Source: a virus
Virus record (IMG/VR): IMGVR_UViG_3300037325_000406
Coordinates: 1 to 27,380 of that record
Direction: 5' to 3' (one strand)
DNA length: 27,380 nt
Made by a program: the position numbers and the translations under genes. The notes below the pieces were generated by a model. The model saw only the letters and a list, made by a program, of their open reading frames with translations, ran no database searches and was not told the origin of the DNA. Within the stretch, counting starts at the first letter, position 1. Each line of letters opens with the position of its first letter. Positions 314 through 26,963 of the stretch are shown here, piece after piece.

Positions 314-850
314 TTAATTATTCCAATTTCGTATGTAAACTTTTCTTGTTCCTTGACTATGCTTCTTTTGCCATACAAACCAGGCGGTTGTAACAGAGTC
401 CGTACCCTTTTCACCCTCTCTAAAAGAGGGTCTCGGACCGCTAAAAATAATCTGATGAGATAGTCGATTACTTGTGCTTTGAAGCCAGTCATATCGTTCT
501 TGGGTAGGTTCGTCAAAACTAAGACGGAGAAGAAAGGCGACTCCTTTTCGGCAGTGTTGATATGTTTTTTTAACTATCGGAAACGCCTGTTTAAACGGGG
601 GGTTTCCTATTGCCCAGTCGAAGGTAAGTTTCGAGTAGAGTTCATCTTTGGTTGCGTCTAAAGAGAAGTCTGTAGGGTATCCCTCTTTAGGGTATAGTTC
701 GTTAGTGAGGCAGTTAGGGATAACTTGACTAATTCTTAAGTCTCCCGCAGTGGGCTCAAAAACGATATCTTCGAGGTCTAAAGGAACGTTGGAAAAAAGA
801 GAATCGAGTAGTCTTACTGGTGTTGGATAGAAGTCATTTGAAACTCTCAT
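314..850 (-). CDS. adenine-specific DNA methyltransferase-like protein (short)
   Basis: A 178-residue protein with ATG start directly after the stop of the preceding gene. Visible class I SAM-methyltransferase signatures: an N-terminal DFYPTP (residues 6-11), a motif I-like FEPTAGD (31-37) and motif IV NPPF (83-86), the catalytic signature of N6-adenine or N4-cytosine methylases. The C-terminal PRPSF...TDSVTTAWFVW segment is typical of short phage and bacterial methylase-like proteins of this type. Motif I lacks the usual second glycine (GxG), so activity is not certain. No cognate restriction enzyme is visible. It could protect phage DNA or modify host DNA. Its position inside an array of small basic proteins is odd for an enzyme gene. 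Confidence 0.75.
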   Translation of the reverse strand: MRVSNDFYPTPVRLLDSLFSNVPLDLEDIVFEPTAGDLRISQVIPNCLTNELYPKEGYPTDFSLDATKDELYSKLTFDWAIGNPPFKQAFPIVKKTYQHCRKGVAFLLRLSFDEPTQERYDWLQSTSNRLSHQIIFSGPRPSFREGEKGTDSVTTAWFVWQKKHSQGTRKVYIRNWNN

Positions 851-1270
851 CTACCGTCTATTCTTCTTCGTTGTTACTTTTGGTTTTTTGTGCAAAGCGG
901 CTCCTCCTACGAAGCCTAGTATTGCTCCTTCTCTAACTCCCTTAGTAGCTCCAGCAATGGCACCGGCACCGCTAGCAAGAACTCGGGCTTTAACCTTCGA
1001 CATTCCTTCAGGAAGAGGGCTATCACCGAGCTTAGTCCCTTGTAAAGCACCATGCCCTGCACCGTAGATGCCATCCAGCGAAGCCTGTCGAGCCGCACCT
1101 CGACCAGCCGAAGCTAGTCGGGTTTTACCGGAACCCCGACCCTTAACGAGGTAGTTAACTACGGAAACAGTGGGATTCTTCTTTTTAGAAGCTCCTCCCC
1201 ACCGGCCCCTTCCCTTTAGTGCTCGGCTAATCTTTTGTCGGGTAGACTCACTCGTTCGTTTACGTGCCAC
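851..1270 (-). CDS. basic KISRAL-motif protein with Gly-rich hydrophobic segments
   Basis: A 139-residue basic protein with a GTG start (ARKRTSES follows) preceded by a GGAAGA-type ribosome-binding site. Residues 5-20 (RTSESTRQKISRALKG) are a NUMOD3-like helix motif. A second block, NYLVKGRGSGKTRLASAGRG (39-58), is shared with the next gene (1274-1693), so the two are close paralogues. The C-terminal half has Gly/Ala-rich stretches (GAGAIAGATKG, 101-111; GAILGFVGGAAL, 115-126) and a lysine-rich tail. Known: NUMOD3 is a small DNA-binding module first described next to homing endonucleases; no nuclease domain is present here. Inferred: a structural or DNA-associated phage protein. Exact role unknown. 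Confidence 0.75.
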   Translation of the reverse strand: MARKRTSESTRQKISRALKGRGRWGGASKKKNPTVSVVNYLVKGRGSGKTRLASAGRGAARQASLDGIYGAGHGALQGTKLGDSPLPEGMSKVKARVLASGAGAIAGATKGVREGAILGFVGGAALHKKPKVTTKKNRR

Positions 1271-1273
1271 TGA

Positions 1274-1693
1274 CTATCTTCCCTTTTTCTTTTTCTTAGA
1301 CTTAGTGCCCGGTTTATAGTGGGTGGCTCCCGCTATAGCTCCTAATACGGCTCCTTCGGTAGCTACTTTTCTACCTCCGGCAACAGCGGCACCAAGACCT
1401 CCCGCTACGCCCGAACCTACATCATTCAAACCCCTCTCTTTCCCTAGCTTTCTTCCGGCGGCGACCCCTGCTGGAACATTTAGAGCTGCGCCTGCAATTC
1501 CTCCGAGAGCGGCCCCTCGTAAAGCACCGCGTCCGGTTGAGCCTAAGCGAGTTTCTCCCGAACCTCGGCCTTTAACTAAATAGTCCGCTACTGCACGAAC
1601 TCCACTTTTCTTACCCCCTTTCTTGCCTCTTCGGTTTTTTAAAGCCTGGCTAATCTTTTGCCGTGTTGATTGGCTTGTTGGTCTGCGTCCCAT
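1274..1693 (-). CDS. basic KISRAL-motif protein with Gly-rich hydrophobic segments
   Basis: A 139-residue paralogue of the gene at 851-1270. ATG start overlaps the upstream stop as TAATG, indicating translational coupling. Motifs: STRQKISQALKNRRGKK (9-25, NUMOD3-like), DYLVKGRGSGETRLGSTGRG (37-56, shared with the 851 gene), then three Gly/Ala-rich segments (ALGGIAGAAL 62-71, VGSGVAGGLGAAVAGG 92-107, GAVLGAIAGA 114-123) and a polylysine C-terminus. The repeated small-residue stretches with GxxxG spacing look like glycine zippers. Function unknown; an association with DNA and/or membrane is an inference from composition. Confidence 0.75.
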   Translation of the reverse strand: MGRRPTSQSTRQKISQALKNRRGKKGGKKSGVRAVADYLVKGRGSGETRLGSTGRGALRGAALGGIAGAALNVPAGVAAGRKLGKERGLNDVGSGVAGGLGAAVAGGRKVATEGAVLGAIAGATHYKPGTKSKKKKKGR

Positions 1694-2085
1694 TATTTTT
1701 TCTTACGTGCTATTGTGTTAATCGCTTCTTCGACCTGTGCTCTATTCTTCTTAAATCCCCAGGCTTTTTTAGTACGCTTGTCTCTTTTTTTAAGTTTAGA
1801 GTTATCGTAGCTAACAGGCTCTTCCTTCCAGCTTTTACCGGGGTCTAAAGAAGCCCCTCCAGGGGTAGATTCCTTGGAGGTAGTTACGGTTGTTGGGTTT
1901 GCTTCAATGGCTCTCTTCTTACTAATAATGCGTTGAGCGGCAATGCCCCCAATAGCCCCACCAACAGCTCCGCCTACAATAAGCTTTGCGGCTCTACCTT
2001 TTTGGTTCTTTTTCTTCTTGCCTTGAAGGGCTCGAGAAATCTTTTGTCGAATTTTAAGGGCTAGGGGCTTTCTTCGTTTTGCCAT
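1693..2085 (-). CDS. basic KISRAL-motif protein, MAKRRKP type
   Basis: A 130-residue protein with ATG start. It begins M-AKRRKP and continues IRQKISRALQGKKKK (12-26), then a glycine-zipper-like segment LIVGGAVGGAIGGIAA (35-50) bounded by RAAK and QRIISKKR. The remainder is basic and hydrophilic with a C-terminal IARKKK. The N-terminus matches the sequence that follows the LEF tripeptide in the three paralogues at 2577-3982, so this gene looks like a version that needs no leader removal. Coupled to the downstream gene by TAATG. No enzymatic signature seen. Confidence 0.75.
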   Translation of the reverse strand: MAKRRKPLALKIRQKISRALQGKKKKNQKGRAAKLIVGGAVGGAIGGIAAQRIISKKRAIEANPTTVTTSKESTPGGASLDPGKSWKEEPVSYDNSKLKKRDKRTKKAWGFKKNRAQVEEAINTIARKKK

Positions 2086-2094
2086 AAGGGCTCT

Positions 2095-2568
2095 CTACTT
2101 ATTTCGCTTCTTAAATTTGAAGTTAATCTTCTTCGTCGACTTTTGGCGAGTAGTTTGCTCTCTACGACCTACACCTGGGCCAGGGGCATCTGGCTGTTGC
2201 CGCATATAGGTACCGTTACCGGGAGTTTCTTTACGTCCAACTCCTCCTGGAAAGTTACCCGCTTTTTCAGGACCACCGGCTGCCAGGAGACCTTGCTTCA
2301 CAGACCCCCCTCCTAGAGCACCTTGGCCCGGAGCGCCTTTGCGTTTAGAGGCGAGTAGAGCTGCTCCGGCTAAACCTCCCGTAATAGCTAGTCCGGCTCC
2401 GACAGCTTTCTTTTTGTTAGCGGCGTCTTTCTTAGAAACCAGTTTCTTACCGGTTAGCTTAAAGAGAGCTTTATTAGCGCCTTTCAAAGCGCCTCTTTTT
2501 TTACCTTTTAGTGCCCGGCTAATATTAGCTCTAGCTGCTGCACTTGTTGGTTTTCTACGTTTTGCCAT
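2095..2568 (-). CDS. basic KISRAL-motif protein, MAKRRKP type
   Basis: A 157-residue protein with ATG start. M-AKRRKPTSAAARANISRALKGKKRG (1-26) gives the NUMOD3-like helix without a YLEF leader. A basic linker is followed by KAVGAGLAITGGLAGAALLASKRKG (54-78), a hydrophobic glycine-rich segment of transmembrane length capped by lysines. The C-terminal half contains GVGRKE and a second GVGRRE, and ends in KKINFKFKKRNK, echoing the conserved VGRKE...NLKAIKxxFKK tail of the paralogues at 2577, 3077 and 3593. The family is thus defined at both ends, which argues for true homology rather than mere lysine richness. Confidence 0.75.
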   Translation of the reverse strand: MAKRRKPTSAAARANISRALKGKKRGALKGANKALFKLTGKKLVSKKDAANKKKAVGAGLAITGGLAGAALLASKRKGAPGQGALGGGSVKQGLLAAGGPEKAGNFPGGVGRKETPGNGTYMRQQPDAPGPGVGRREQTTRQKSTKKINFKFKKRNK

Positions 2569-2576
2569 GATTTTTC

Positions 2577-3077
2577 CTACTTTTTAAATTTCTGCTTAAT
2601 TGCCTTGAGGTTGATTCCCTTTTTTGTATTCTGCTTAGGGTCTCTTCCGATTCTTTCTTTTCTTCCAACTCCTTGCCCCAAAGGTCTCCGAGTTCGTTCC
2701 CTATACACGCTTAGGTGTCCTTCACGTTCCGCCGCCCTTACCCTTTCAACATCTCTTTGGTATTTCATATCCGTGTTTAGAGTTCGAGGACCTTCTGGTT
2801 TCGGTACTTCCTTTCTAGGGGCTGGAGAAAGCCGAGCTGGGTTGGGTTTTCCAGAGTCTTTTAAAAGATTCTGAGGTTGTTTTCCAGAGCCTTTCCGGTT
2901 TTTAAGAGCTAAAGCTGCGACCCCGACTCCTCCAACAACACCTAAGCCGATAGCCGCTTTCTTCTTATTGCTAAGCTTACCTTTTTTCTTCCGTTTACCC
3001 TTTAATGCCCGACTAATCTTTTCTCTAGCTTGAGCACCAAGAGGCTTACGTTTTTTTGCGAACTCTAAGTATCCCAT
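2577..3077 (-). CDS. basic KISRAL-motif protein with YLEF leader
   Basis: A 166-residue protein; ATG start overlaps the upstream stop (TAATG). It begins MGYLEF-AKKRKP; after the F the sequence aligns with the true N-termini (M-AKRRKP) of the genes at 1693 and 2095, suggesting a removable six-residue leader. KISRALKGK lies at 20-28, a hydrophobic Gly/Ala segment (AAIGLGVVGGVGVAALAL) at 41-58, and the tail holds GQGVGRKERIGRDPKQN and GINLKAIKQKFKK. It is a close tandem duplicate of 3077-3583. Predicted substrate of the phage protease at 18482-19420 (inference). Role unknown; DNA condensation or ejection are candidates. Confidence 0.8.
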   Translation of the reverse strand: MGYLEFAKKRKPLGAQAREKISRALKGKRKKKGKLSNKKKAAIGLGVVGGVGVAALALKNRKGSGKQPQNLLKDSGKPNPARLSPAPRKEVPKPEGPRTLNTDMKYQRDVERVRAAEREGHLSVYRERTRRPLGQGVGRKERIGRDPKQNTKKGINLKAIKQKFKK

Positions 3078-3583
3078 TACTTTTTAAACCTCTGTTTAAT
3101 TGCCTTTAGATTAATTCCCTTTTTCGTATTTTGTTTAGGATCTCTGCTAATTCTTTCTTTTCTTCCAACTCCTTGTCCTAAAGGTCTCCGAGTTCGTTCC
3201 TTATACCGGCTTATGTTGTCTTCACGGTTTGCCATCTTTACCTTTCCAAGCTGTCTGTCGTATTTCATCTGCTGGTTAAGAGTTAGACGACCTTTTAGTA
3301 TCGGTGGGAATGGCCTTTTAGGGCCTGGAGAAAGCCGAGCTGGGTCTGGTTTTCCAGAATCTTTTAAGATCTTTTGAGGTTCTTTTCCCGAGCCTTTCCG
3401 GTTTTTAAGGGCTAGCGCTGCGACCCCTAACCCCCCAGCAACCCCTAAAGAAATGGCCGCTTTCTTCTTATTGCTAAGGCTACTTCCTTTTTTCTTCCGT
3501 TTACCCTTTAATGCCCGACTAATCTTTTGTTTTACCTGAGCCGTAATGGGCTTACGTTTTTTTGCAAATTCTAAGTACCCCAT
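3077..3583 (-). CDS. basic KISRAL-motif protein with YLEF leader
   Basis: A 168-residue protein, the closest paralogue of 2577-3077 in both protein and DNA sequence, differing mainly in the middle (around residues 90-125). MGYLEF-AKKRKP at the N-terminus, KISRALKGK at 20-28, glycine-rich hydrophobic segment KAAISLGVAGGLGVAALAL at 41-59, conserved C-terminal VGRKERISRDPKQN and GINLKAIKQRFKK. ATG start. The two genes are joined by a TAATG overlap, fitting a tandem duplication followed by divergence. No known domain other than the NUMOD3-like helix is visible. Confidence 0.8.
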   Translation of the reverse strand: MGYLEFAKKRKPITAQVKQKISRALKGKRKKKGSSLSNKKKAAISLGVAGGLGVAALALKNRKGSGKEPQKILKDSGKPDPARLSPGPKRPFPPILKGRLTLNQQMKYDRQLGKVKMANREDNISRYKERTRRPLGQGVGRKERISRDPKQNTKKGINLKAIKQRFKK

Positions 3584-3592
3584 TTAGACCAC

Positions 3593-3982
3593 TTACTTTT
3601 TAAGTCTCCGCTTAATTGCCCCGAGGTTAATTCCTCTTTTCGTATTCTGTTTAGGGTCTCTTCCAATTCTCTCTTTTCTTCCAACTCCGGTGTAGGTTTG
3701 CTCACCACGCGCCGAAGTAGCTCCTTCAATTGGGTCATTATTTCGACCATTATCCGTAGCTCCGGCGAGTAGTCCTTGAGGCTGAGACTTTCCTTTACGC
3801 TGAGCTAAGACTGCCGTAGCAGCACCTAGACCTCCGGCAACCCCTAAAGAAATGGCCGCTTTCTTCTTATTGCTAAGCTTACCTCCTTTCTTCCGTCTCT
3901 TTCCTTTTAATGCCCGACTAATCTTTTGTCTTACCTGAGCCGTAATGGGCTTTCTTCGTTTTGCAAATTCTAAATATGCCAT
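3593..3982 (-). CDS. basic KISRAL-motif protein with YLEF leader
   Basis: A 129-residue shorter member of the same family. MAYLEF-AKRRKPITAQVRQK leads into ISRALKGKRRKKGG; residues 41-60 are the hydrophobic Gly/Ala segment (KAAISLGVAGGLGAATAVLA), and the tail keeps GVGRKERIGRDPKQN and GINLGAIKRRLKK. The central Pro-rich spacer of the two preceding paralogues is largely missing. ATG start. It is the first family member after the tail-terminator candidate at 4002-4493, so the array sits directly after head-tail joining genes, where a tail-tube gene would often be expected. Confidence 0.8.
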   Translation of the reverse strand: MAYLEFAKRRKPITAQVRQKISRALKGKRRKKGGKLSNKKKAAISLGVAGGLGAATAVLAQRKGKSQPQGLLAGATDNGRNNDPIEGATSARGEQTYTGVGRKERIGRDPKQNTKRGINLGAIKRRLKK

Positions 3983-4493: not shown

Positions 4494-4919
4494 TTATAGG
4501 AACCTTGCGAGAAAAGAACGACTCTCAAGTTTACCTTTTGCTTTATTTCGGGTATCTCGACTTTGCTCAAAAGCTTTACCCGATTTATAGCCATAAACTT
4601 TAGCCATGTTTGCAGGTCTATTTAAGGTCTTAACAAGCCCATCTACGTCTTTTTGGGTATAACGCTTACCTACCAGATCACCTCTTTTGTCGTTATACTT
4701 TTTGGCGATACCTACTATCTGGTCACCATCAACACTCTTCATGTGGCTATCCCAGTCTTTTTGCTTCTCTCGGTAACCCGCGTTCTCTTTTCTAATCCGG
4801 GCGATTGTAGTAAAAAAACCTCCCTCTTTTTTCTCTTTCTTTTGTTTGTTTTTTGTAAGAGCTCGACTAATCTTCGCTTTGTGAGCTGCGCTTAAAGGCT
4901 TTCGCTGTGTTGTTGTCAT
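4494..4919 (-). CDS. basic KISRAL-motif protein without glycine-rich segment
   Basis: A 141-residue basic protein with ATG start. MTTTQRKPLSAAHKAKISRALTKNK (1-25) is the clearest NUMOD3-like version and is nearly identical to the internal copy in the 466-residue protein at 6680-8080 (RRRKPLTAAHKAKISRALTQN). The rest is charged and helical (around GGFFTTIARIRKENAGYREKQKDW) and lacks the Gly/Ala hydrophobic segment of the 851-3982 genes. It lies between the two tail-completion candidates, so it is co-expressed with virion proteins. Function unknown; DNA or RNA binding is plausible from the motif and charge. Confidence 0.7.
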   Translation of the reverse strand: MTTTQRKPLSAAHKAKISRALTKNKQKKEKKEGGFFTTIARIRKENAGYREKQKDWDSHMKSVDGDQIVGIAKKYNDKRGDLVGKRYTQKDVDGLVKTLNRPANMAKVYGYKSGKAFEQSRDTRNKAKGKLESRSFLARFL

Positions 4920-6679: not shown

Positions 6680-8080
6680 TTAGGGGATAATTCCTTTTGC
6701 GCGTAACTTAGCTGCAAAACCTTTGGCTACCTTTTTGAAGGATTTTGCGTTTTTAATTTTAGTCTTCAGAGCGGCTTTTGCAAGGCCGATGCGCTCCTTC
6801 TGGTAAGGGGTTAAACCTTTTTCACCAAAGGCTCTACCGATACTTCCGACTCCAATACCGACCCCGGCAACACCTGCCCCGACGGAAGTAATCCGACGGT
6901 CTGTAATGCCACTCTTCATGGCTTCGCGAGTAATCTCCCCCGTTTTGAATCTATCAAAAGTACTGACCGCTTGAGAGCCAATAGCAACTACGGTTCCGAT
7001 AGTGGCTAGCTTCCTCTGGTTCTTATAGAAGTCCACCTCTTCGTTAGATTGACTAGGATTGTTCTGTGTTAAAGCCCGACTAATCTTGGCTTTATGGGCA
7101 GCAGTAAGGGGCTTACGTCTTCTACTGCCTCCGGACTTTTTTCCTTTTTTCCGCTTCCTGGAAGCTGCAAACTGTAAAAGCTCCTCACCTTCAAGCTCTT
7201 TTCTCTTTCCAAACTCTAACCAGAAATTTTCAGACGAGAAACCGAATATTTGTTTTCTTTTAGCCGAATCTTTCCTAGCTCGATTCTTTAGCACAGAAAA
7301 GAACTTCGCAGCCCCGCGACCTACCTTATACTCGGCACTTCCTTTATCGGGATCTGAATTTTGCATTTCAGAGGTATACGCTTCCTTGCCTTGTTTTGCG
7401 GCCTCCACTCTATCCGTAACGGGAGATAGCAATTTTTGAGTAGAAGCTTTTTTCTTTTGGAAAGCTTTTCCAAGACTTCGGCCTCTTTTACCCCAGGGGT
7501 CTTCTACATCAGGAAAAGGGTTGTTTAGCTCTTTCTTAAAGTTAGCCTTTGCTTTTTGAAAATTTCCTTGAAAGTGTTCTTGCGTTACTTCACCAGCTTT
7601 CTCAACGGTAGCTTTAGTCTTTTGAACGACTTCTTTTTGAGCCTGTTTTACCGTTGTTTTAGCCCCCTCGTAGAGGTCACTAGGAATATCGGCGGCGGCA
7701 GATTTTGCTTCGGTAACAGTCTTATTTAGTTTTGAAGCCGCAAAGACGCCCCCTCCTAGTACGGCTCCTGCACCGGCCACACCTCCAACAACTTTTACAG
7801 CAACTGCGACTTTAGCTGCATTTTTTTTCTTTTTCGCTCCAGCCCGAGCCGCCAATCGATCTTCAAGGTCTAACTTTAAAATGCTATTTTGAAGACCAAC
7901 GTTGCTATTTCGAAGACCAATATTCGTTTTTTGAAGTCCATAGGTCTCTCCAAGACTCGCTTTAGCCTTACCGAAAGCTCCGGGCTTTTTATTTTTGGAA
8001 TTTTTGCGCCCTCTCCTAGAGAGAGATTCACTAATTCTTTTTTTCCAAAGAGCTTTATTCTTAAACTTTCTATTTCTCAT
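6680..8080 (-). CDS. modular basic protein with two NUMOD3-like helices and internal WLEF site
   Basis: A 466-residue, strongly basic protein with ATG start and no clear ribosome-binding site. Order: NUMOD3-like helix (KNKALWKKRISESLSRRGRK, 7-26); three 7-residue repeats (GLQKTNI, GLRNSNV, GLQNSIL, 48-68); a lysine run then a Gly/Ala hydrophobic segment (VKVVGGVAGAGAVLGGGVFAA, 95-115); a helical, probably coiled-coil region (120-185); SSENFWLEF-GKRKE (282-295); LLQF-AASRKRKKGKK (301-315); a second NUMOD3 helix (RRRKPLTAAHKAKISRALTQ, 320-339); and a second glycine-zipper stretch (SVGAGVAGVGIGVGSIG, 399-415). The second half looks like a whole array-type basic protein fused behind a predicted protease site. 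No known family recognised. Confidence 0.75.
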   Translation of the reverse strand: MRNRKFKNKALWKKRISESLSRRGRKNSKNKKPGAFGKAKASLGETYGLQKTNIGLRNSNVGLQNSILKLDLEDRLAARAGAKKKKNAAKVAVAVKVVGGVAGAGAVLGGGVFAASKLNKTVTEAKSAAADIPSDLYEGAKTTVKQAQKEVVQKTKATVEKAGEVTQEHFQGNFQKAKANFKKELNNPFPDVEDPWGKRGRSLGKAFQKKKASTQKLLSPVTDRVEAAKQGKEAYTSEMQNSDPDKGSAEYKVGRGAAKFFSVLKNRARKDSAKRKQIFGFSSENFWLEFGKRKELEGEELLQFAASRKRKKGKKSGGSRRRKPLTAAHKAKISRALTQNNPSQSNEEVDFYKNQRKLATIGTVVAIGSQAVSTFDRFKTGEITREAMKSGITDRRITSVGAGVAGVGIGVGSIGRAFGEKGLTPYQKERIGLAKAALKTKIKNAKSFKKVAKGFAAKLRAKGIIP

Positions 8081-8277: not shown

Positions 8278-8652
8278 TTACTGCTTCTTTTTGTTTTTAA
8301 ATACCGGCTTCTGTTCGGCTAAGTACTTTTTGCTTGGGGGACCGAAACCCCTAACAGCACCATATCCGGGCTTTTCTCCCCCTGGGCCACTTCGAACCCA
8401 GCCTCCTCTTTGCGCTGTCTTAAGCTCGGAATCCGTTAAACTACGAACTTTACTTACAGAAGACCCGCCTCTTCTAAGTTTTGTTCGGGCTTTAGTAATA
8501 GCCGCATTTCGGTCTTTAGCTTTAACTACAATAGCAGTTCTACGGCCAGCAAACCAAACTCCTCTAACATCTTTCTCTCTTGTAAAAGACTTTACTCTTG
8601 TTCCATCTTTTCTCTTATAGGACGGTACTTTAGTTCTTGTTTTTTTACTCAT
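8278..8652 (-). CDS. small basic phage protein
   Basis: A 124-residue basic protein with ATG start, first gene leftward of the divergent promoter region at 8653-8699. The N-terminus contains SYKRKDGTRVKSFTRE, close to a short Y(T/K)RxDGTxVxxxxR motif found in many small phage and bacterial proteins of unknown function. The centre (AKDRNAAITKARTKLRRGG) is helical; the C-terminus is Gly/Pro-rich (RSGPGGEKPGYGAVRGFGPP) and lysine-ended. No KISRAL helix. Function unknown. Confidence 0.6.
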   Translation of the reverse strand: MSKKTRTKVPSYKRKDGTRVKSFTREKDVRGVWFAGRRTAIVVKAKDRNAAITKARTKLRRGGSSVSKVRSLTDSELKTAQRGGWVRSGPGGEKPGYGAVRGFGPPSKKYLAEQKPVFKNKKKQ

Positions 8653-15542: not shown

Positions 15543-16658
15543 CTAGTCTTTAACCTGTAAGGCGTAGAGTAGTTTAGGATCGGGGAACACTGGAAGAACA
15601 GTAGCAACACCTTGAGTTACGTCAATAGGTGGTATAGGCTGTAGTTCACGGGTAACCACGTAGACTCCAGTTTGACCATCGTTTTCCAGAGTAGGACCCA
15701 TTGCTCTCTTACCCATGTCGGGAGAGAGAAATACGATCATGTTATCTTTCAGGAAACGTACGTTAGTTGTCGATTGATTGCTCATCTCATCTTTGTACAT
15801 TTCGTCAAAGGTGACGATCTCGGGAATACCGCGAGCTTTTAGAACATCACTTAAGAGGTCCATGCTCACAGTACCCACAGTAATAGCGGTACGGGAGTTA
15901 ACAGACTCTTTAGTGGATTTCTGTTCCATAAGGTCGATGCGTAGCTTACGGCTCATAACAATCTTATCAGGAATAAACCCGTTAGTATCGTTATAGTTAG
16001 TAATCGCGTCTTCTAAGTCTTTCATCCCTGTAGCCGTTTCATACTGATCCCAGCGAGCTTGGCCAGCTAGAGCAGCAGGAAAGTGGTTATAGGTAATGTC
16101 ATTACCATTACGGTAATCAATGACTGTTGGGAGTTTGCTACGAGGGTCAACTCTTTCGATTTTCCCTGTTTGCAGAACTTCCCAGGATAGAGCATCCAGT
16201 AGTTCAACTTGTGCTCGGGCCATCTGTTCGACTGTTCCAAAGAGGAACTTAGCGAGGTCTTCGTTAGAGCCAGGAATTACTTCCCCGGTTTTCATATCTC
16301 TGGTTGTTTGAACCATGATACGTTTGAGGGCGGCTTCTTCGATAGCTTTTTTCATCTCCCACTGACGATCTTCATCGTAGAAGAAGGAGAGACCAGTTTT
16401 CAGCAATTCAGCCTGAATTCTGCGGAACTTCCCGTGCTGTGTAACAGGGGGCTCAGTTCCGTATGCGATGACACTCGCCACAGTCTCAATACGCTCCAGG
16501 GCGTAGGCTAAGAAATTGCGGCTTGTGTATGTCTGGAAGGGCAGATAGCCATCCAGTAATTTAGATCTTTTTTTAAGACTATGAAGCGTATCGTCAATAA
16601 CAAGTTGAGCTACTCCTTGTTGATGCGCATCAGATAGCCATTTGGCAATCCAACCCAT
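15543..16658 (-). CDS. major capsid protein (lambda gpE family)
   Basis: A 371-residue protein; ATG preceded by GGAG. The layout matches the phage capsid E family: N-terminal helix (AQLVIDDTLHSLKKRSKLLD), a strand region (ETVASVIAYGTEPPVTQHGKF), RIMVQTTRDMKTGEVIPGSNED, a long helix (TVEQMARAQVELLDALSWEV), VIDYRNGNDITYNHFPAAL before a helical D-type segment (WDQYETATGMKDLEDAITNY), then FIPDKIVMSRKLRIDLME and the C-terminal MIVFLSPDMGKRAMGPT and VFPDPKLLYALQV. It forms the HK97-fold icosahedral shell. It directly follows the decoration gene, the D-E order of lambda. No EF-type cleavage motif is seen, so it is probably not processed by the phage protease. Confidence 0.85.
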   Translation of the reverse strand: MGWIAKWLSDAHQQGVAQLVIDDTLHSLKKRSKLLDGYLPFQTYTSRNFLAYALERIETVASVIAYGTEPPVTQHGKFRRIQAELLKTGLSFFYDEDRQWEMKKAIEEAALKRIMVQTTRDMKTGEVIPGSNEDLAKFLFGTVEQMARAQVELLDALSWEVLQTGKIERVDPRSKLPTVIDYRNGNDITYNHFPAALAGQARWDQYETATGMKDLEDAITNYNDTNGFIPDKIVMSRKLRIDLMEQKSTKESVNSRTAITVGTVSMDLLSDVLKARGIPEIVTFDEMYKDEMSNQSTTNVRFLKDNMIVFLSPDMGKRAMGPTLENDGQTGVYVVTRELQPIPPIDVTQGVATVLPVFPDPKLLYALQVKD

Positions 16659-17543: not shown

Positions 17544-18419
17544 TTAGGTATCTTGCTTTAACATTTCATAGCTAGCTTCAATTTGGCTGGCTAAGGTTTC
17601 AATTTCGGATTCATCGTATCCGTCATATTCTTCACCTTCGTAGGCAGAACTAAACTCGAAAGATGGTCCTAACGCTTCGAATACTGCGAGAGTAAACTCG
17701 ATGTTGGATAGTCTTTCGATAGGAGTGCTTTCCGATTCGTCACAAGCTGCCGAGAATTCCACATATTGGCTTTTCTCGTCTTGACCAAATAAAAGATGGT
17801 AGGCGCTAGGGGGCATAAATCCACCCTCAACTAAGCTACCCGCTTTCTGACTTAGATCGTCTAAGTATTCGGTAACGGCTTCCTTCTGACTCATTTCGTC
17901 GACAGCACTAGCATAGCGAGAGAACTGGCGCTGTAGAGCTGCTACTTGAGCAGAGGGCTCTTCATCGTACTCTTCATCGTACTCTTCCTCGTCATCGAAC
18001 TCTTCGTCGTCTTCGTATTGTCCGACAGCCCCCTCGTATTCGTCTTCCTCTTCATCATCTCCGTAGTCTTCCTCAAACTCCCCGGCCTCAATAGCCTCGA
18101 GAAGTTCTTCAGCGATATCGTAAGAAGCGACAGCACTAGCGTCCAGTCGATCAGCTTCGGAGTCAGTTTCACAAAGCTCTTGCAGAGTTTCTACAAGGTC
18201 TTCGGTGGGGAGCTGTTCACCGACCATTAGGCCGATAACTAGCTCTTCATTGATTTCAAATCCGGCATTTATTAGACCATCTGTGATGTCTTCAATGGCG
18301 TCATCGATATTGTCGTAATTAGCTTCCGCTAGTCTTAACAGTTCAGTACCAAATGGGTTTTCTGCAATAGCGCTAGAAAACTCAATTAGTCCCTCGAAAT
18401 CACCTTTATAAAAATCCAT
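17544..18419 (-). CDS. acidic scaffold-like protein with EF cleavage-type motifs
   Basis: A 291-residue highly acidic protein, ATG start. A helical N-terminal part (1-110) is followed by an Asp/Glu/Tyr-rich low-complexity region (113-155), then helices (QVAALQRQFSRYASAVDEMS; EAVTEYLDDLSQKAGSL) and an acidic C-terminus. Size, charge and place between protease and capsid genes suit an internal scaffold. Three motifs match the proposed protease site: LIEF-SSA (11-17), YVEF-SAA (219-225) and FEF-SSA (254-259). The FSRY segment (166-169) also occurs near the C-terminus of the protease gene product. Transcription probably starts at the promoter 18450-18478. No homologue recognised by motif. Confidence 0.6.
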   Translation of the reverse strand: MDFYKGDFEGLIEFSSAIAENPFGTELLRLAEANYDNIDDAIEDITDGLINAGFEINEELVIGLMVGEQLPTEDLVETLQELCETDSEADRLDASAVASYDIAEELLEAIEAGEFEEDYGDDEEEDEYEGAVGQYEDDEEFDDEEEYDEEYDEEPSAQVAALQRQFSRYASAVDEMSQKEAVTEYLDDLSQKAGSLVEGGFMPPSAYHLLFGQDEKSQYVEFSAACDESESTPIERLSNIEFTLAVFEALGPSFEFSSAYEGEEYDGYDESEIETLASQIEASYEMLKQDT

Positions 18420-18481: not shown

Positions 18482-19420
18482 TTAACCTCTAACTTTTGCT
18501 TTTTTAAAAACTTTTGCATCTTGATATCGGGAGAATTTACTACTAGCAATATTCACTTTGTCTTTAGTTAATTTCTTAGGCATATTTTCGTCTTCACCTG
18601 TAACATTAAGGCCTGAACTCTCTTCTTCAGACTCCTCAGTTAAGCCAAACATCTCCTCTAACTCTTCAAGGGCATACTGCATAGCATCGTAGCTGGCCTG
18701 AATAGGGTTGTCTATTTCTTTACTTACTAACTCTTCATCACTCATAGAGGTGAGACTCGTCAAGATTGTAAATAAGTCTCCAACTAACTTGAAGTATTCT
18801 TTTTCCAGAACATTCTTTTTCTCTCTTCCCGAATATAGATCGTCAAAGCTTACGGCCTTAATCGGAATGTCGTTTCGGGAAGCTGGAACAACAGGGTCAG
18901 TTACGGGACTCGAAGCTTCCATTGCTTCAAACATGAGATAACCCGAACTGTCATTTTCATCAAAATTAAACTGGCTAAAGAGAGCTGGGCCCACGATAGC
19001 AGGTAACGGAGTGGCAGACACTTCAGCAAAAATTCCAAGGATGGGATCGATACCAGGGGAGAGGGTTCTAATAGATTTACTTAACACTGCGTCAACGGCC
19101 GCTTTGCCCTTAGCTACGACGTTATCCACGAATACCCCAAGACGGCCAATCAAGTGCTTGTACTTAGGATCGGGTAGATTGTCGGCGGTCAGAATCTCGG
19201 TGTAGAAATCACTTTCGATATCTCCGAGGTTATACTCTTGAGTTTTGTTATGGTCTCTCTGAAAGGGTACACGGCCTCCTTGAGCTAAGAACTGATTGGT
19301 TTTACTTACTAGGTCTTCGATTCGATCCTTATCAAAGATGTGAACCCGATGCTTGTTATCTTTATGTTGTCCCTCTACGAAGACCAGAGCGGACTTAGAG
19401 AGACGATATTCTTTTTTCAC
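18482..19420 (-). CDS. prohead maturation protease with scaffold-like tail (Mu I / S78-like)
   Basis: A 312-residue protein with a GTG start preceded by AGGAAG. Residues 1-155 look like a phage serine protease of the Mu gpI / S78 type: an N-terminal strand region, RVPFQRDHNKT with H57, a central GRLGVFVDNVVAKGKAAVDAV, SIRTLSPGID with S121, and IFAEVSATPLPAIVGPAL, matching the R-x-(L/I)-S-x-G/P...E(V/I)S...P pattern. Residues 160-166 (GYLMFEA) form an EF-like site at the domain boundary; beyond it is an acidic, helical scaffold-like tail (LEELEEMFGLTEESEEESSG) with a basic C-terminus (SSKFSRYQDAKVFKKAKVRG). Such proteins assemble inside the prohead, cleave themselves and other head proteins, and are then lost. 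Confidence 0.72.
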   Translation of the reverse strand: MKKEYRLSKSALVFVEGQHKDNKHRVHIFDKDRIEDLVSKTNQFLAQGGRVPFQRDHNKTQEYNLGDIESDFYTEILTADNLPDPKYKHLIGRLGVFVDNVVAKGKAAVDAVLSKSIRTLSPGIDPILGIFAEVSATPLPAIVGPALFSQFNFDENDSSGYLMFEAMEASSPVTDPVVPASRNDIPIKAVSFDDLYSGREKKNVLEKEYFKLVGDLFTILTSLTSMSDEELVSKEIDNPIQASYDAMQYALEELEEMFGLTEESEEESSGLNVTGEDENMPKKLTKDKVNIASSKFSRYQDAKVFKKAKVRG

Positions 19421-24629: not shown

Positions 24630-26963
24630 TTAACTGAACAACTCTCTTAACTCTTTGACTCTTAGATTCCCTTCAGGTCTAAGAGTCTTTTCTGTGTCGT
24701 AGTTTTCGATAGATAGGTCTTGCGTATAAAGACTACCCGTAAAGACTTGGCGAAAAGACTGCTTTGTCTCGAAGTAGTTAAGCGCTTGAGTCATAGCGTC
24801 GACTTGGTCATTGTACTTACCTCGGGGGAAGAACGATACTTCATGCTCGAAGTCGACAATCCAGTCTTTATCCATGAGTTTCTTGGAAGGAAAGACTACA
24901 CGCCCAGCTTCAAAGAGGAACGTAGTCGCCATAGCTCTCACGGTTTTATCACCACCTCCAATCTCTCGCGGATTAACTGGCAGTAGATTAGGAACCTCCC
25001 GTCTTAGTAAATCAATAACGGCCGATCCGTTAGCCCGATTCTCTACAAGAATGGTACTACAGTAGGGGTGCTTCTTAGCTAAACGTTTGATAGCTTCTAA
25101 CTGGTCAACAGTATTAAACTGTCCTCTTACTTGGTCGAGCAAATAGTAATCGAGAGTCTTGCTCTTACGACCCCACACTTGTCCAACACAGAAAGAGCCT
25201 TCTCGGGATCCAAAGCTGAGGTCCCAAGAGGTTAGGGTGAAATCAAAGACACCCCTAATGTTGTAGGGCGTATAGATATCGTTATAGTATTTAAACCATT
25301 TGTCTTTAATAATACCTCCACCAAGAGGTACGGGTCTTTGCTGTAATTGCCCTGCTACCCCCCACTCACCTAATTGTTTCTTAAGGGGGATGAGTATGTC
25401 AGGTGGAAAACGCTCAGGCCATAAGATCTCTCCTTTCTTTGTCCGTGGGTCTTCCCAACCAATACGCGTTATGTATCGCGTAGGCTCGTACTCCATGGGG
25501 AGATTGAGGTGAGTCCAATTATCTAAGCCTTCTTCTTGTAAGATAAATCCAGCTAAGTCCTCCTGGTGCAATCTCTGCATAATAAGAATCTTACGCGAGT
25601 CGAGGCTATTGGCACGGGTGGATACTGTTTGTTGCCACCAATCGAGAACGGCTTCTCTTTTAGGTTTGGAGTTAATCTCTCCGGCTTTGTGGGGATCGTC
25701 GATGATGAGGATGTCGTAACCTTCACCAGTACCTACACCTCCAATAGATGTGGCCAGACGTTTACCGCCACTCTGGTTTTCATAGCGAGACTTCTGGTTC
25801 ACATCTCCCGAAAACTCAAACCGGTCTCCCCACTGGCCTTGGTACCAAGGACTCTGGATAAGAGAACGTGATCTAACAGAGTCGCGTAAGGCTAGCTCCT
25901 TACCATAGGAAGCCGTAAGGAATTGAACTTCGGGCATACCTAAGGGACCCCACACCCACGTAGGAAAAGCTACGTTACACATAGAGGAGTTGTGTGTAGG
26001 AATTGCAGACCGGCCTACTAGGTAGAGTCCATCTGGAGAGTCGACGGTAATGCAGTTTCCAAGAACTGGGCTAACCTTCTCAATGGTTCTTATACTTATT
26101 CGTTCTTGGCTTATCTCGCGAGTTGGAAAAGAGAAGTCTACGAGACTAGGTCTTTGGCCTAGAGATATTAAAACGTCTGTGATATCTTCTATTAGCTGTT
26201 GGCTAGGTCTTCCCTGGTTACCCTTGATCAGTCCCTCAATTAACTGAAGTCTTTGGTCAATCGATCCTCTTTTGTAGATATCGGGGATTCGCGTTTCCCC
26301 CCTCAGTCCAAGTCCTAAGGAGTAAGGGTCGATAGGCAGAGAAGCTTCCTCATTCTCTAAGGGAGAGATATTTCTTAAAAGGTAGCGGCCTGGAGTCTTG
26401 TCGTTAAGGATCTTTAGATTTTGGGTCTCTACTATTTTGTAGCTTTGCGAGAGGCTATCGCATACTTCCCAAAGATGATTCTCTCCACAGCGGATAGTCT
26501 CATTATTACTAAACGTAACCTGGTAGTCTACGTTTACATTGGGGTGTACTTCCTTAACGAGAATCGCCTTTCCCGAAGGATGGTAGACCGAGTCTCCTAC
26601 TTTTAAGTCTCCATGGGTAACATACCCTTTAGGGGTTAGAACTAGCTCTCTCTTAGCTAGCGGCTTCGAATGTCTCGGAGGTATGTTAATCATGAGGTTC
26701 ATGATTTGTTTCTTAGCTAAGGCTTCTAAGTGTTCAGCGATAGCTTTAAAGTGCCACCCTGGTATGTAGGGACTTGGATCATATATATCCCAAGACGATT
26801 TGTAGTAGAAAAAGAAAGAACGTTCACATTCACCTGTGCTCTCCTGTTCCAAAGAATCTAGCAGTTGACGATTGATAACCTTCTCTTCAGCATCGAGAGC
26901 CATAAGCTCTGCCTCTAAAAAAGCAATCTTTTCTCTAACGAGCTTACTGGATTTAGAATTCAT
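24630..26963 (-). CDS. terminase large subunit interrupted by a class 3 intein
   Basis: A 777-residue precursor; removing the intein (101-325) leaves about 552 residues, normal for TerL. ATP-ase part: the Walker A-like NIPPRHSK (93-100) is split by the intein and continues SSMCNVAFPTWVWG (326-339); Walker B is DILIIDDPHK (417-426); a motif III-like KILIMQR follows. The nuclease domain shows TSWDLSFG (D581), ILVENRANG (E641) and GKYNDQVDAM (D719, D722), the acidic residues that coordinate Mg for cutting concatemers. TerL drives DNA into the prohead. ATG start without an evident Shine-Dalgarno. Enzyme activity requires splicing, since the intein interrupts the ATP-binding loop. Confidence 0.93.
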   Translation of the reverse strand: MNSKSSKLVREKIAFLEAELMALDAEEKVINRQLLDSLEQESTGECERSFFFYYKSSWDIYDPSPYIPGWHFKAIAEHLEALAKKQIMNLMINIPPRHSKPLAKRELVLTPKGYVTHGDLKVGDSVYHPSGKAILVKEVHPNVNVDYQVTFSNNETIRCGENHLWEVCDSLSQSYKIVETQNLKILNDKTPGRYLLRNISPLENEEASLPIDPYSLGLGLRGETRIPDIYKRGSIDQRLQLIEGLIKGNQGRPSQQLIEDITDVLISLGQRPSLVDFSFPTREISQERISIRTIEKVSPVLGNCITVDSPDGLYLVGRSAIPTHNSSMCNVAFPTWVWGPLGMPEVQFLTASYGKELALRDSVRSRSLIQSPWYQGQWGDRFEFSGDVNQKSRYENQSGGKRLATSIGGVGTGEGYDILIIDDPHKAGEINSKPKREAVLDWWQQTVSTRANSLDSRKILIMQRLHQEDLAGFILQEEGLDNWTHLNLPMEYEPTRYITRIGWEDPRTKKGEILWPERFPPDILIPLKKQLGEWGVAGQLQQRPVPLGGGIIKDKWFKYYNDIYTPYNIRGVFDFTLTSWDLSFGSREGSFCVGQVWGRKSKTLDYYLLDQVRGQFNTVDQLEAIKRLAKKHPYCSTILVENRANGSAVIDLLRREVPNLLPVNPREIGGGDKTVRAMATTFLFEAGRVVFPSKKLMDKDWIVDFEHEVSFFPRGKYNDQVDAMTQALNYFETKQSFRQVFTGSLYTQDLSIENYDTEKTLRPEGNLRVKELRELFS
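25989..26663 (-). other. class 3 intein in TerL Walker A, endonuclease decayed
   Basis: 225 residues (P101-N325) between PPRHSK and SSMCNV. Block A is PLAKRELVLTPKGYV, with Pro instead of Cys/Ser at position 1. Block B CGENHLW has H163 and W165; block F GNCITVDSPDGLYLVG has C304; block G IPTHN has T323 before H324-N325, and Ser is the +1 residue. W-C-T at B12, F4 and G5 is the class 3 signature, where the block F Cys starts splicing. Between blocks B and F, DPYSLGLGLRGE (212-223) and QRLQLIEGLIKGNQG (237-251) look like LAGLIDADG motifs that have lost their catalytic Asp residues, with the intervening segment deleted. Confidence 0.85.

Follow-up and report, generated by a model that had tools for sequence, protein, structure and literature searches.

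Short N-terminal leaders are present on several internal proteins of bacteriophage T4 (IPI, IPII and IPIII; protease gp21). They are 10-19 residues long and have a common head, MKT[YF]xEF (read from NC_000866); leader positions 4 and 7 are important in targeting, and positions 8 and 10 in processing, with the cut made after Glu (PMC9026906). In phiKZ, 201phi2-1 and SPN3US many head propeptides are removed, after Glu and at multiple sites each, by a prohead protease which also cuts itself; the propeptides of SPN3US mostly have 111-254 residues (two have 20 and 24). The Dar proteins of P1 are internal and are co-ejected with DNA, and the head protease removes an N-terminal part of DarA (PMC12810830). 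Here we analyse a virus record of 27,380 bases (IMG/VR IMGVR_UViG_3300037325_000406, positions 1 to 27,380; this whole stretch is called the window), in which three of five very basic paralogous proteins carry MGYLEF or MAYLEF in front of AK(K/R)RKP. We propose, with a probability of roughly 0.8, that YLEF is a capsid-targeting leader, cut after Phe by the phage head-maturation protease. A literature search found no description of head-targeting leaders in these phages.

Results

The N-termini of the five paralogues had been reported in a sequence-only reading of the window, and our translations agree with it for all five genes. As all of them lie on the minus strand, the coordinates used there (1693, 2095, 2577, 3077 and 3593) are gene 3' ends; they serve here as gene names. 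The proteins have net charges of +27 to +40; in their cores an initial basic stretch is followed by a NUMOD3-like motif and then by a Gly/Ala-rich segment. The leader in 3593 is an exact 15-bp in-frame difference from 1693 (GCATATTTAGAATTT), amounting to five extra codons after the ATG and flanked by GCA in 3593; the 18 nt that come next (GCA AAA CGA AGA AAG CCC) are identical to those which follow the ATG in 1693. No hidden leader exists upstream of 1693 or 2095, since in both the reading frame is closed by stops within a few codons of the start. A Met preceding Ala is normally removed, and therefore the leader-bearing and leaderless kinds would both mature to AKRRKP. M-AKRRKP is not a universal leaderless start, because the basic paralogues 851, 1274 and 4494 begin otherwise.

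In the window's predicted proteins the motif Y[LV]EF occurs 5 times (0.11 expected from shuffles; maximum 2 in 2000) and [LIV]EF[AS] 6 times (0.64 expected; maximum 4), although the independent occurrences of both are fewer than counted, since three are tandem duplicates. The remaining occurrences belong to the acidic scaffold candidate (LIEF^SSA and YVEF^SAA, with FEF^SSA being similar; the caret marks the junction or predicted cut) and to the MuF-like protein (GYVEF^AK).

The only annotated phages that match both the capsid protein (34%) and the protease (28-30%) of the window are the Pseudanabaena phages Pam2 and PA-SR01, and the known relatives of the window virus infect cyanobacteria. Viral contigs yielded closer relatives (L043 and L044; protease 48%, capsid protein 53%), a 121-kb contig (L059) whose capsid protein is 52% identical to that of the window, and many PA-SR01-like genomes. 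For the basic window proteins themselves, no relatives were obtained from viral contigs (protein and DNA pattern), annotated phages or genome contigs. An alignment search with them led only to a very basic protein without a leader (L010, 3028-3603), which has two NUMOD3 motifs and whose gene sits with those for head proteins on a contig from an unrelated phage. In a profile search of the relatives with the window paralogues, the sole match, a weak one to NUMOD3, was in an endonuclease of PA-SR01.

L059 encodes, at syntenic positions, five small basic proteins, whose leaders are of four kinds and 4 to 12 residues long. These proteins are similar in design to the window paralogues, but homology is not established, because the profile search matched none of them. 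Near the homologue of window gene 4002 (47% identical) the starts are MKFIGQTSNLNF^ARKRGSRDKK, MYEF^ARKRGSRDKK, MSYYEF^ARKRGSRDKK and MSYYEF^ARKKGSRDKG. The fifth protein, a homologue of window 8278-8652 (42%), may start MINF^ARKKGSRDLK, provided that an internal ATG is used (with an upstream GTG as start, the protein would be longer); the window homologue has no such leader. The junction [EN]F^ARK(R/K)GSRD is present in all five, and the invariant columns start at F. The motif [LIVYM][EN]F[AS] occurs 9 times in the L059 head region (1.08 expected), five of the nine being the leader paralogues, and 5 times elsewhere in the genome (6.8 expected); by itself, [EN]F[ASG] is not specific enough to show enrichment (11 against 6.2). 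The 121-kb relative also encodes a protein ending in ..QGINF^ARKRRR (L066, 4601-5293), where a cut may fall directly ahead of a basic tail.

The sister clade, comprising PA-SR01, Pam2 and environmental genomes, has a seven-residue leader, MxHF[AV][N/D]F^, on 31 distinct proteins, nearly all of which are basic. Past the leader, these proteins form 13 families with no detectable homology to one another. Some of them lie inside longer open reading frames (ORFs), which may use an internal Met or result from gene fusion. The pattern MxHF[AV]xF gave 36 matches in 7 of 8 genomes, and the reversed pattern none. Across the complete PA-SR01 genome, all 11 ORFs with MxHF starts have F at position 7 (pI 9.2-10). 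A further scan of viral contigs found F7 in 32 of 34 MxHF ORFs, most loci having been fetched by an F7-containing pattern; a few of the ORFs are so short or unusual that they are probably chance matches. One of the families is a SNF2-type helicase (phrog_62 DNA helicase, 1.1e-45), which starts MKHFADF^ADERQPIT in two contigs (L030, 5540-6952, and L011, 15082-16491, both on the minus strand) and in PA-SR01 lies within a longer ORF as MEHFANF^TDET; with this leader it is predicted to be head cargo. Long ORFs of L012 (14010-15932) and L053 (15132-17168) contain several RKSANF^ sites between Gly-rich repeats and look like head polyproteins due for cutting into units.

These data bear on two other explanations of the conserved start. 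It could be a DNA or RNA signal (a translation start or promoter) encoding the peptide by chance, which its position at start codons would suit. However, synonymous positions are free, with no codon-level conservation beyond the amino acids: the 36 matches show 30 DNA spellings, so it is the peptide that is kept, not the DNA. The YLEF codons also differ among the window paralogues, and the motif is found inside ORFs as well; we consider such a signal scarcely credible. Alternatively, YLEF could reflect common descent only, as a functionless extension of recent duplicates, and the three window copies are indeed adjacent duplicates. This is very improbable given that the L059 leaders differ yet share their ending, that the motif is also present in non-homologous window proteins, and that MxHF starts are distributed as they are in the sister clade.

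Searches of the translated loci with sister-clade cores placed homologous cores behind leaders of 7, 12, 14 or 16 residues, with F at the junction. The core GYVKxANKQLKRL is found behind MQHFANF, MQHFADF, VEHFANF and MQHFTHFRSFEADF, and the related GYVKEANK behind MQHFVNFGTIDF; SNS[TA]RKSFTRQK behind MQHFADF, MQHFASF and MMHFTSFLPTNVVSDF; ALGDTELG behind MQHFANF and MQHFAHFNSQNANF; xNIYQTGL behind MKHFAEF and MKHFVYFAAPTANF; and [IV]RL[ST]D behind MQHFANF and MQHFTHFGSSTASF, to which the viral contig scan adds MQHFASFQSPLASF^IRLSD and others. F precedes the core in 40 of 50 distinct contexts, most of the remaining 10 being partial matches to Gly-rich segments with an undefined start. The sequence-only reading had suggested examining whether the boundary between leader and core shifts among homologues; in the relatives it is the leader that varies and the boundary that is constant, both in the five L059 paralogues and in the five sister-clade core types, and the leader idea thus withstands this check. 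The residue before the junction F is E, N, D, S or K (usually Glu, Asn or Asp). Cleavage after Glu, as in T4, was set aside, as that position may hold E, N, D or S, whereas F does not vary.

Long leaders retain the MxHF head, which suggests that the leader is bipartite, with a head for targeting and an end for cleavage. A pure cleavage site without any targeting role, with proteins entering through their basic charge or the conserved basic segment that follows the cut, is an unlikely alternative: MxHF persists in leaders of 12-16 residues, far from the cut, and the sister-clade cores past the cut are unrelated. It would nevertheless account for the same basic core in leaderless paralogues, for strongly basic cargo facing a strongly acidic scaffold, and for the conservation of the L059 stretch ARK(R/K)GSRD together with the leader. 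The sequence-only reading had set a processed leader and a sorting tag against each other. Both ideas are supported, but they are best combined rather than opposed, because 13 unrelated families carry MxHF[AV][ND]F and a cleavage site alone needs no such spread.

The candidate for the enzyme is encoded within the head module. The PA-SR01 homologue of this protein matches phrog_976 (head maturation protease, 4.1e-5), and it had been identified by HHpred as a Mu-like prophage I protein, PF10123 (PMC7431792). The structural model of the window protein matches the 'Capsid maturation protease' of Gordonia phage Jumbo (1.7e-6), while a PDB fold search with this model returned nothing significant. 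Of the putative catalytic residues, the His belongs to a dipeptide DH that is invariant at H57; Ser121 is conserved in one alignment and slightly displaced in another. Gel bands of PA-SR01 were assigned to genes by size only (PMC7431792) and hence provide no test of the leaders. Mass spectrometry of Pam2 virions has been published (PMC9382816).

The xF^ motif recurs within the scaffold, the protease and the MuF-like protein, and it also separates the units of fused ORFs. Scaffold sites F14^S and F222^S, preceded by E or N, are invariant in the window, L059, L043 and L044, and the site GYVEF^AKNRTK of the MuF-like protein aligns with the homologous IIEF^ASKK of L059. The sister-clade form of the site is ANF^ (also AEF, ADF and AQF), which is seen in the scaffold and the protease and in the products of the genes lying between these two. 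Among tripeptides of the PA-SR01 head-region proteins, ANF shows the strongest over-representation (11 against 0.83, p 1.6e-9), and likewise in L053 (10 against 0.69). Such recurrence argues against a tag that targets proteins to the head yet stays on, like an uncleaved cargo-loading peptide, and so does the fact that the core begins directly after F at any leader length, as a cut predicts. One heptapeptide on 13 unrelated families requires targeting only, and cleavage is deduced from sequence, but we regard a retained tag as distinctly improbable, more so than a pure cleavage site.

The head module lies on the minus strand of the window and contains terminase, the MuF-like protein, the protease, the acidic protein, a 281-aa protein and the major head protein; tail and accessory genes follow, and then the run of small basic proteins at the left end (Table 1). 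In the scaffold candidate the F codons of the candidate sites are at 18378-18380 (LIEF^SSA), 17922-17924 (RQF^SRY), 17754-17756 (YVEF^SAA) and 17652-17654 (FEF^SSA). Both candidate sites of the 466-aa basic protein are upstream of its embedded NUMOD3-like module. The N-terminal basic motif of window proteins resembles NUMOD3 (PF07460), but without a nuclease domain; the scores are 16.4 (gene 3593), 16.7, 12.6 and 19.3 bits, all below the curated cutoff of 20.4.

Table 1. Positions of leaders, basic proteins and head proteins in the window
Feature	Position	Strand	Remarks
Leader MAYLEF of gene 3593-3982	3965..3982	-	Predicted cut F6^A7
Basic protein MAYLEF-AKRRKP, 129 aa, pI 11.7, net +27	3593..3982	-	NUMOD3-like N-terminus, Gly/Ala-rich segment
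Leader MGYLEF of gene 3077-3583	3566..3583	-	Predicted cut F6^A7
Basic paralogue MGYLEF-AKKRKP, 168 aa, net +40	3077..3583	-	
Leader MGYLEF of gene 2577-3077	3060..3077	-	Predicted cut F6^A7
Basic paralogue MGYLEF-AKKRKP, 166 aa, net +36	2577..3077	-	
Basic paralogue M-AKRRKP without leader, net +34	2095..2568	-	
Basic paralogue M-AKRRKP without leader, net +28	1693..2085	-	
Two further NUMOD3-like basic proteins without leader	851..1693	-	Different starts: 851-1270 MARKRTSES; 1274-1693 MGRRPTSQS
NUMOD3-like basic protein without leader	4494..4919	-	Start MTTTQRKPLS, MTTTQRKPLSAAHKAKISRAL
466-aa basic protein	6680..8080	-	Weaker candidate sites FWLEF^GKRK (F codon 7211-7213) and LLQF^AASRKRK (7169-7171)
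Major head protein	15543..16658	-	Used as bait for relatives
Probable scaffold, net charge -77	17544..18419	-	Candidate sites; F14 and F222 invariant in relatives
Head-maturation protease candidate	18482..19420	-	phrog_976 via PA-SR01 homologue, model match, invariant DH at H57, Ser121 conserved in one of two alignments
MuF-like minor head protein, 1616 aa	19424..24274	-	Candidate site GYVEF^AKNRTK (F codon 23903-23905)

Some further features were noted. An ORF at 314-850 (minus strand) of the window has an NPPF motif and is possibly a fragment of an adenine methyltransferase. Intein-like insertions (ending ..HNSS) are present in the terminases of both the window (24630-26963, minus strand) and L059 (110-2833), and another in the MuF-like protein of L044 (280-5457), but not in its close relative L043. 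The Pam2_03 product (ON014754, 2064-3905), encoded in the structural region, is annotated as 'botulinum neurotoxin type B', probably a misannotation.

Discussion

Modularity of the leader, a constant junction after F, clustering with head genes and the presence of a protease gene are features of the sequences themselves, from which we infer targeting, cleavage after F and packaging. In the mechanism we propose, the leader would bring small, very basic, probably DNA-binding proteins to the prohead, probably via the acidic scaffold. The protease would then cut the scaffold and the leaders after F, and the fragments would leave; the scaffold, the MuF-like protein and the protease would be cut by the same enzyme at [E/N]F^ sites. 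The mature proteins, beginning AK(K/R)RKP, would remain with the packaged DNA and would probably be ejected with it. Leader and mature protein would thus be separate modules, so that relatives may vary the length and spelling of the leader or place it on unrelated proteins. Leaderless paralogues would gain the same N-terminus by Met removal, and might enter by charge, through leader-bearing partners, or not at all.

Several observations weigh against this interpretation. The window protease has no direct family match; the model of it is of good quality only in the N-terminal domain and of poor quality as a whole (mean pLDDT 59.1). Since leaderless paralogues exist, either some members can do without the leader or those members go elsewhere. 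Within the window the leader is restricted to one paralogous family, and neither there nor in L059 does any tripeptide stand out after paralogues have been reduced to a single count. The cut might also fall just before F, after E or N, but this is disfavoured by the leaderless M-AKRRKP starts and by the variable residue preceding F. Because the three leaders derive from one duplicated gene, the window evidence is weak alone, and given the deduplicated tripeptide counts it supports the leader idea without establishing it; the strength of the case comes from the relatives. The sequence-only reading, which ranked the window paralogues as the strongest single argument, therefore overstated them: they equal one leader lineage.

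The likeness to T4 extends to leaders on several internal proteins, varying leader length and a protease gene among the head genes. YLEF of the window and YYEF of L059 fit the T4 [YF]xEF, and MxHFxxF of the sister clade is aromatic at positions 4 and 7 (F4 and F7); the aromatic residues are Y3 and F6 in the window and variable in L059. A leader common to several unrelated proteins, typical of the T4 system, is found in the relatives, whereas the window has one paralogous family. T4 cleavage falls after Glu, a few residues past EF, while the junction here follows the invariant F; the capsid protein and protease families differ, and no homology of cargo sequences was shown. The leaders would work like those of T4, but by protease specificity they are not T4 members. 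The resemblance is striking, yet the motif is short, and convergence and descent cannot be told apart. The giant phages resemble this system in having many head propeptides removed by a prohead protease, but the leaders here have only 4 to 16 residues and would be cut after Phe, not Glu. DarA of P1 loses about 9 kDa rather than a heptapeptide, and the sister clade has its leader on a SNF2-type helicase.

Conclusions

For the clade as a whole, we somewhat favour the view that a portable leader (MxHF[AV][ND]F^, or MxYxEF^ in the clade of the window) loads more than 12 unrelated proteins, the SNF2-type helicase among them, into heads for delivery to the host, the protease cutting after Phe, unlike the Glu-specific cleavage of T4 and the giant phages, and the heptad serving for targeting, separate from the cleavage part in leaders of 12-16 residues. 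With natural pairs having short, long or no leaders, experiments could tell targeting and cleavage apart. A second, apparently independent case of T4-type targeting, with another protease specificity, would be added. Moreover, a readable leader would reveal, from sequence alone, which proteins are carried in the head and probably injected, most of which are now hypothetical.

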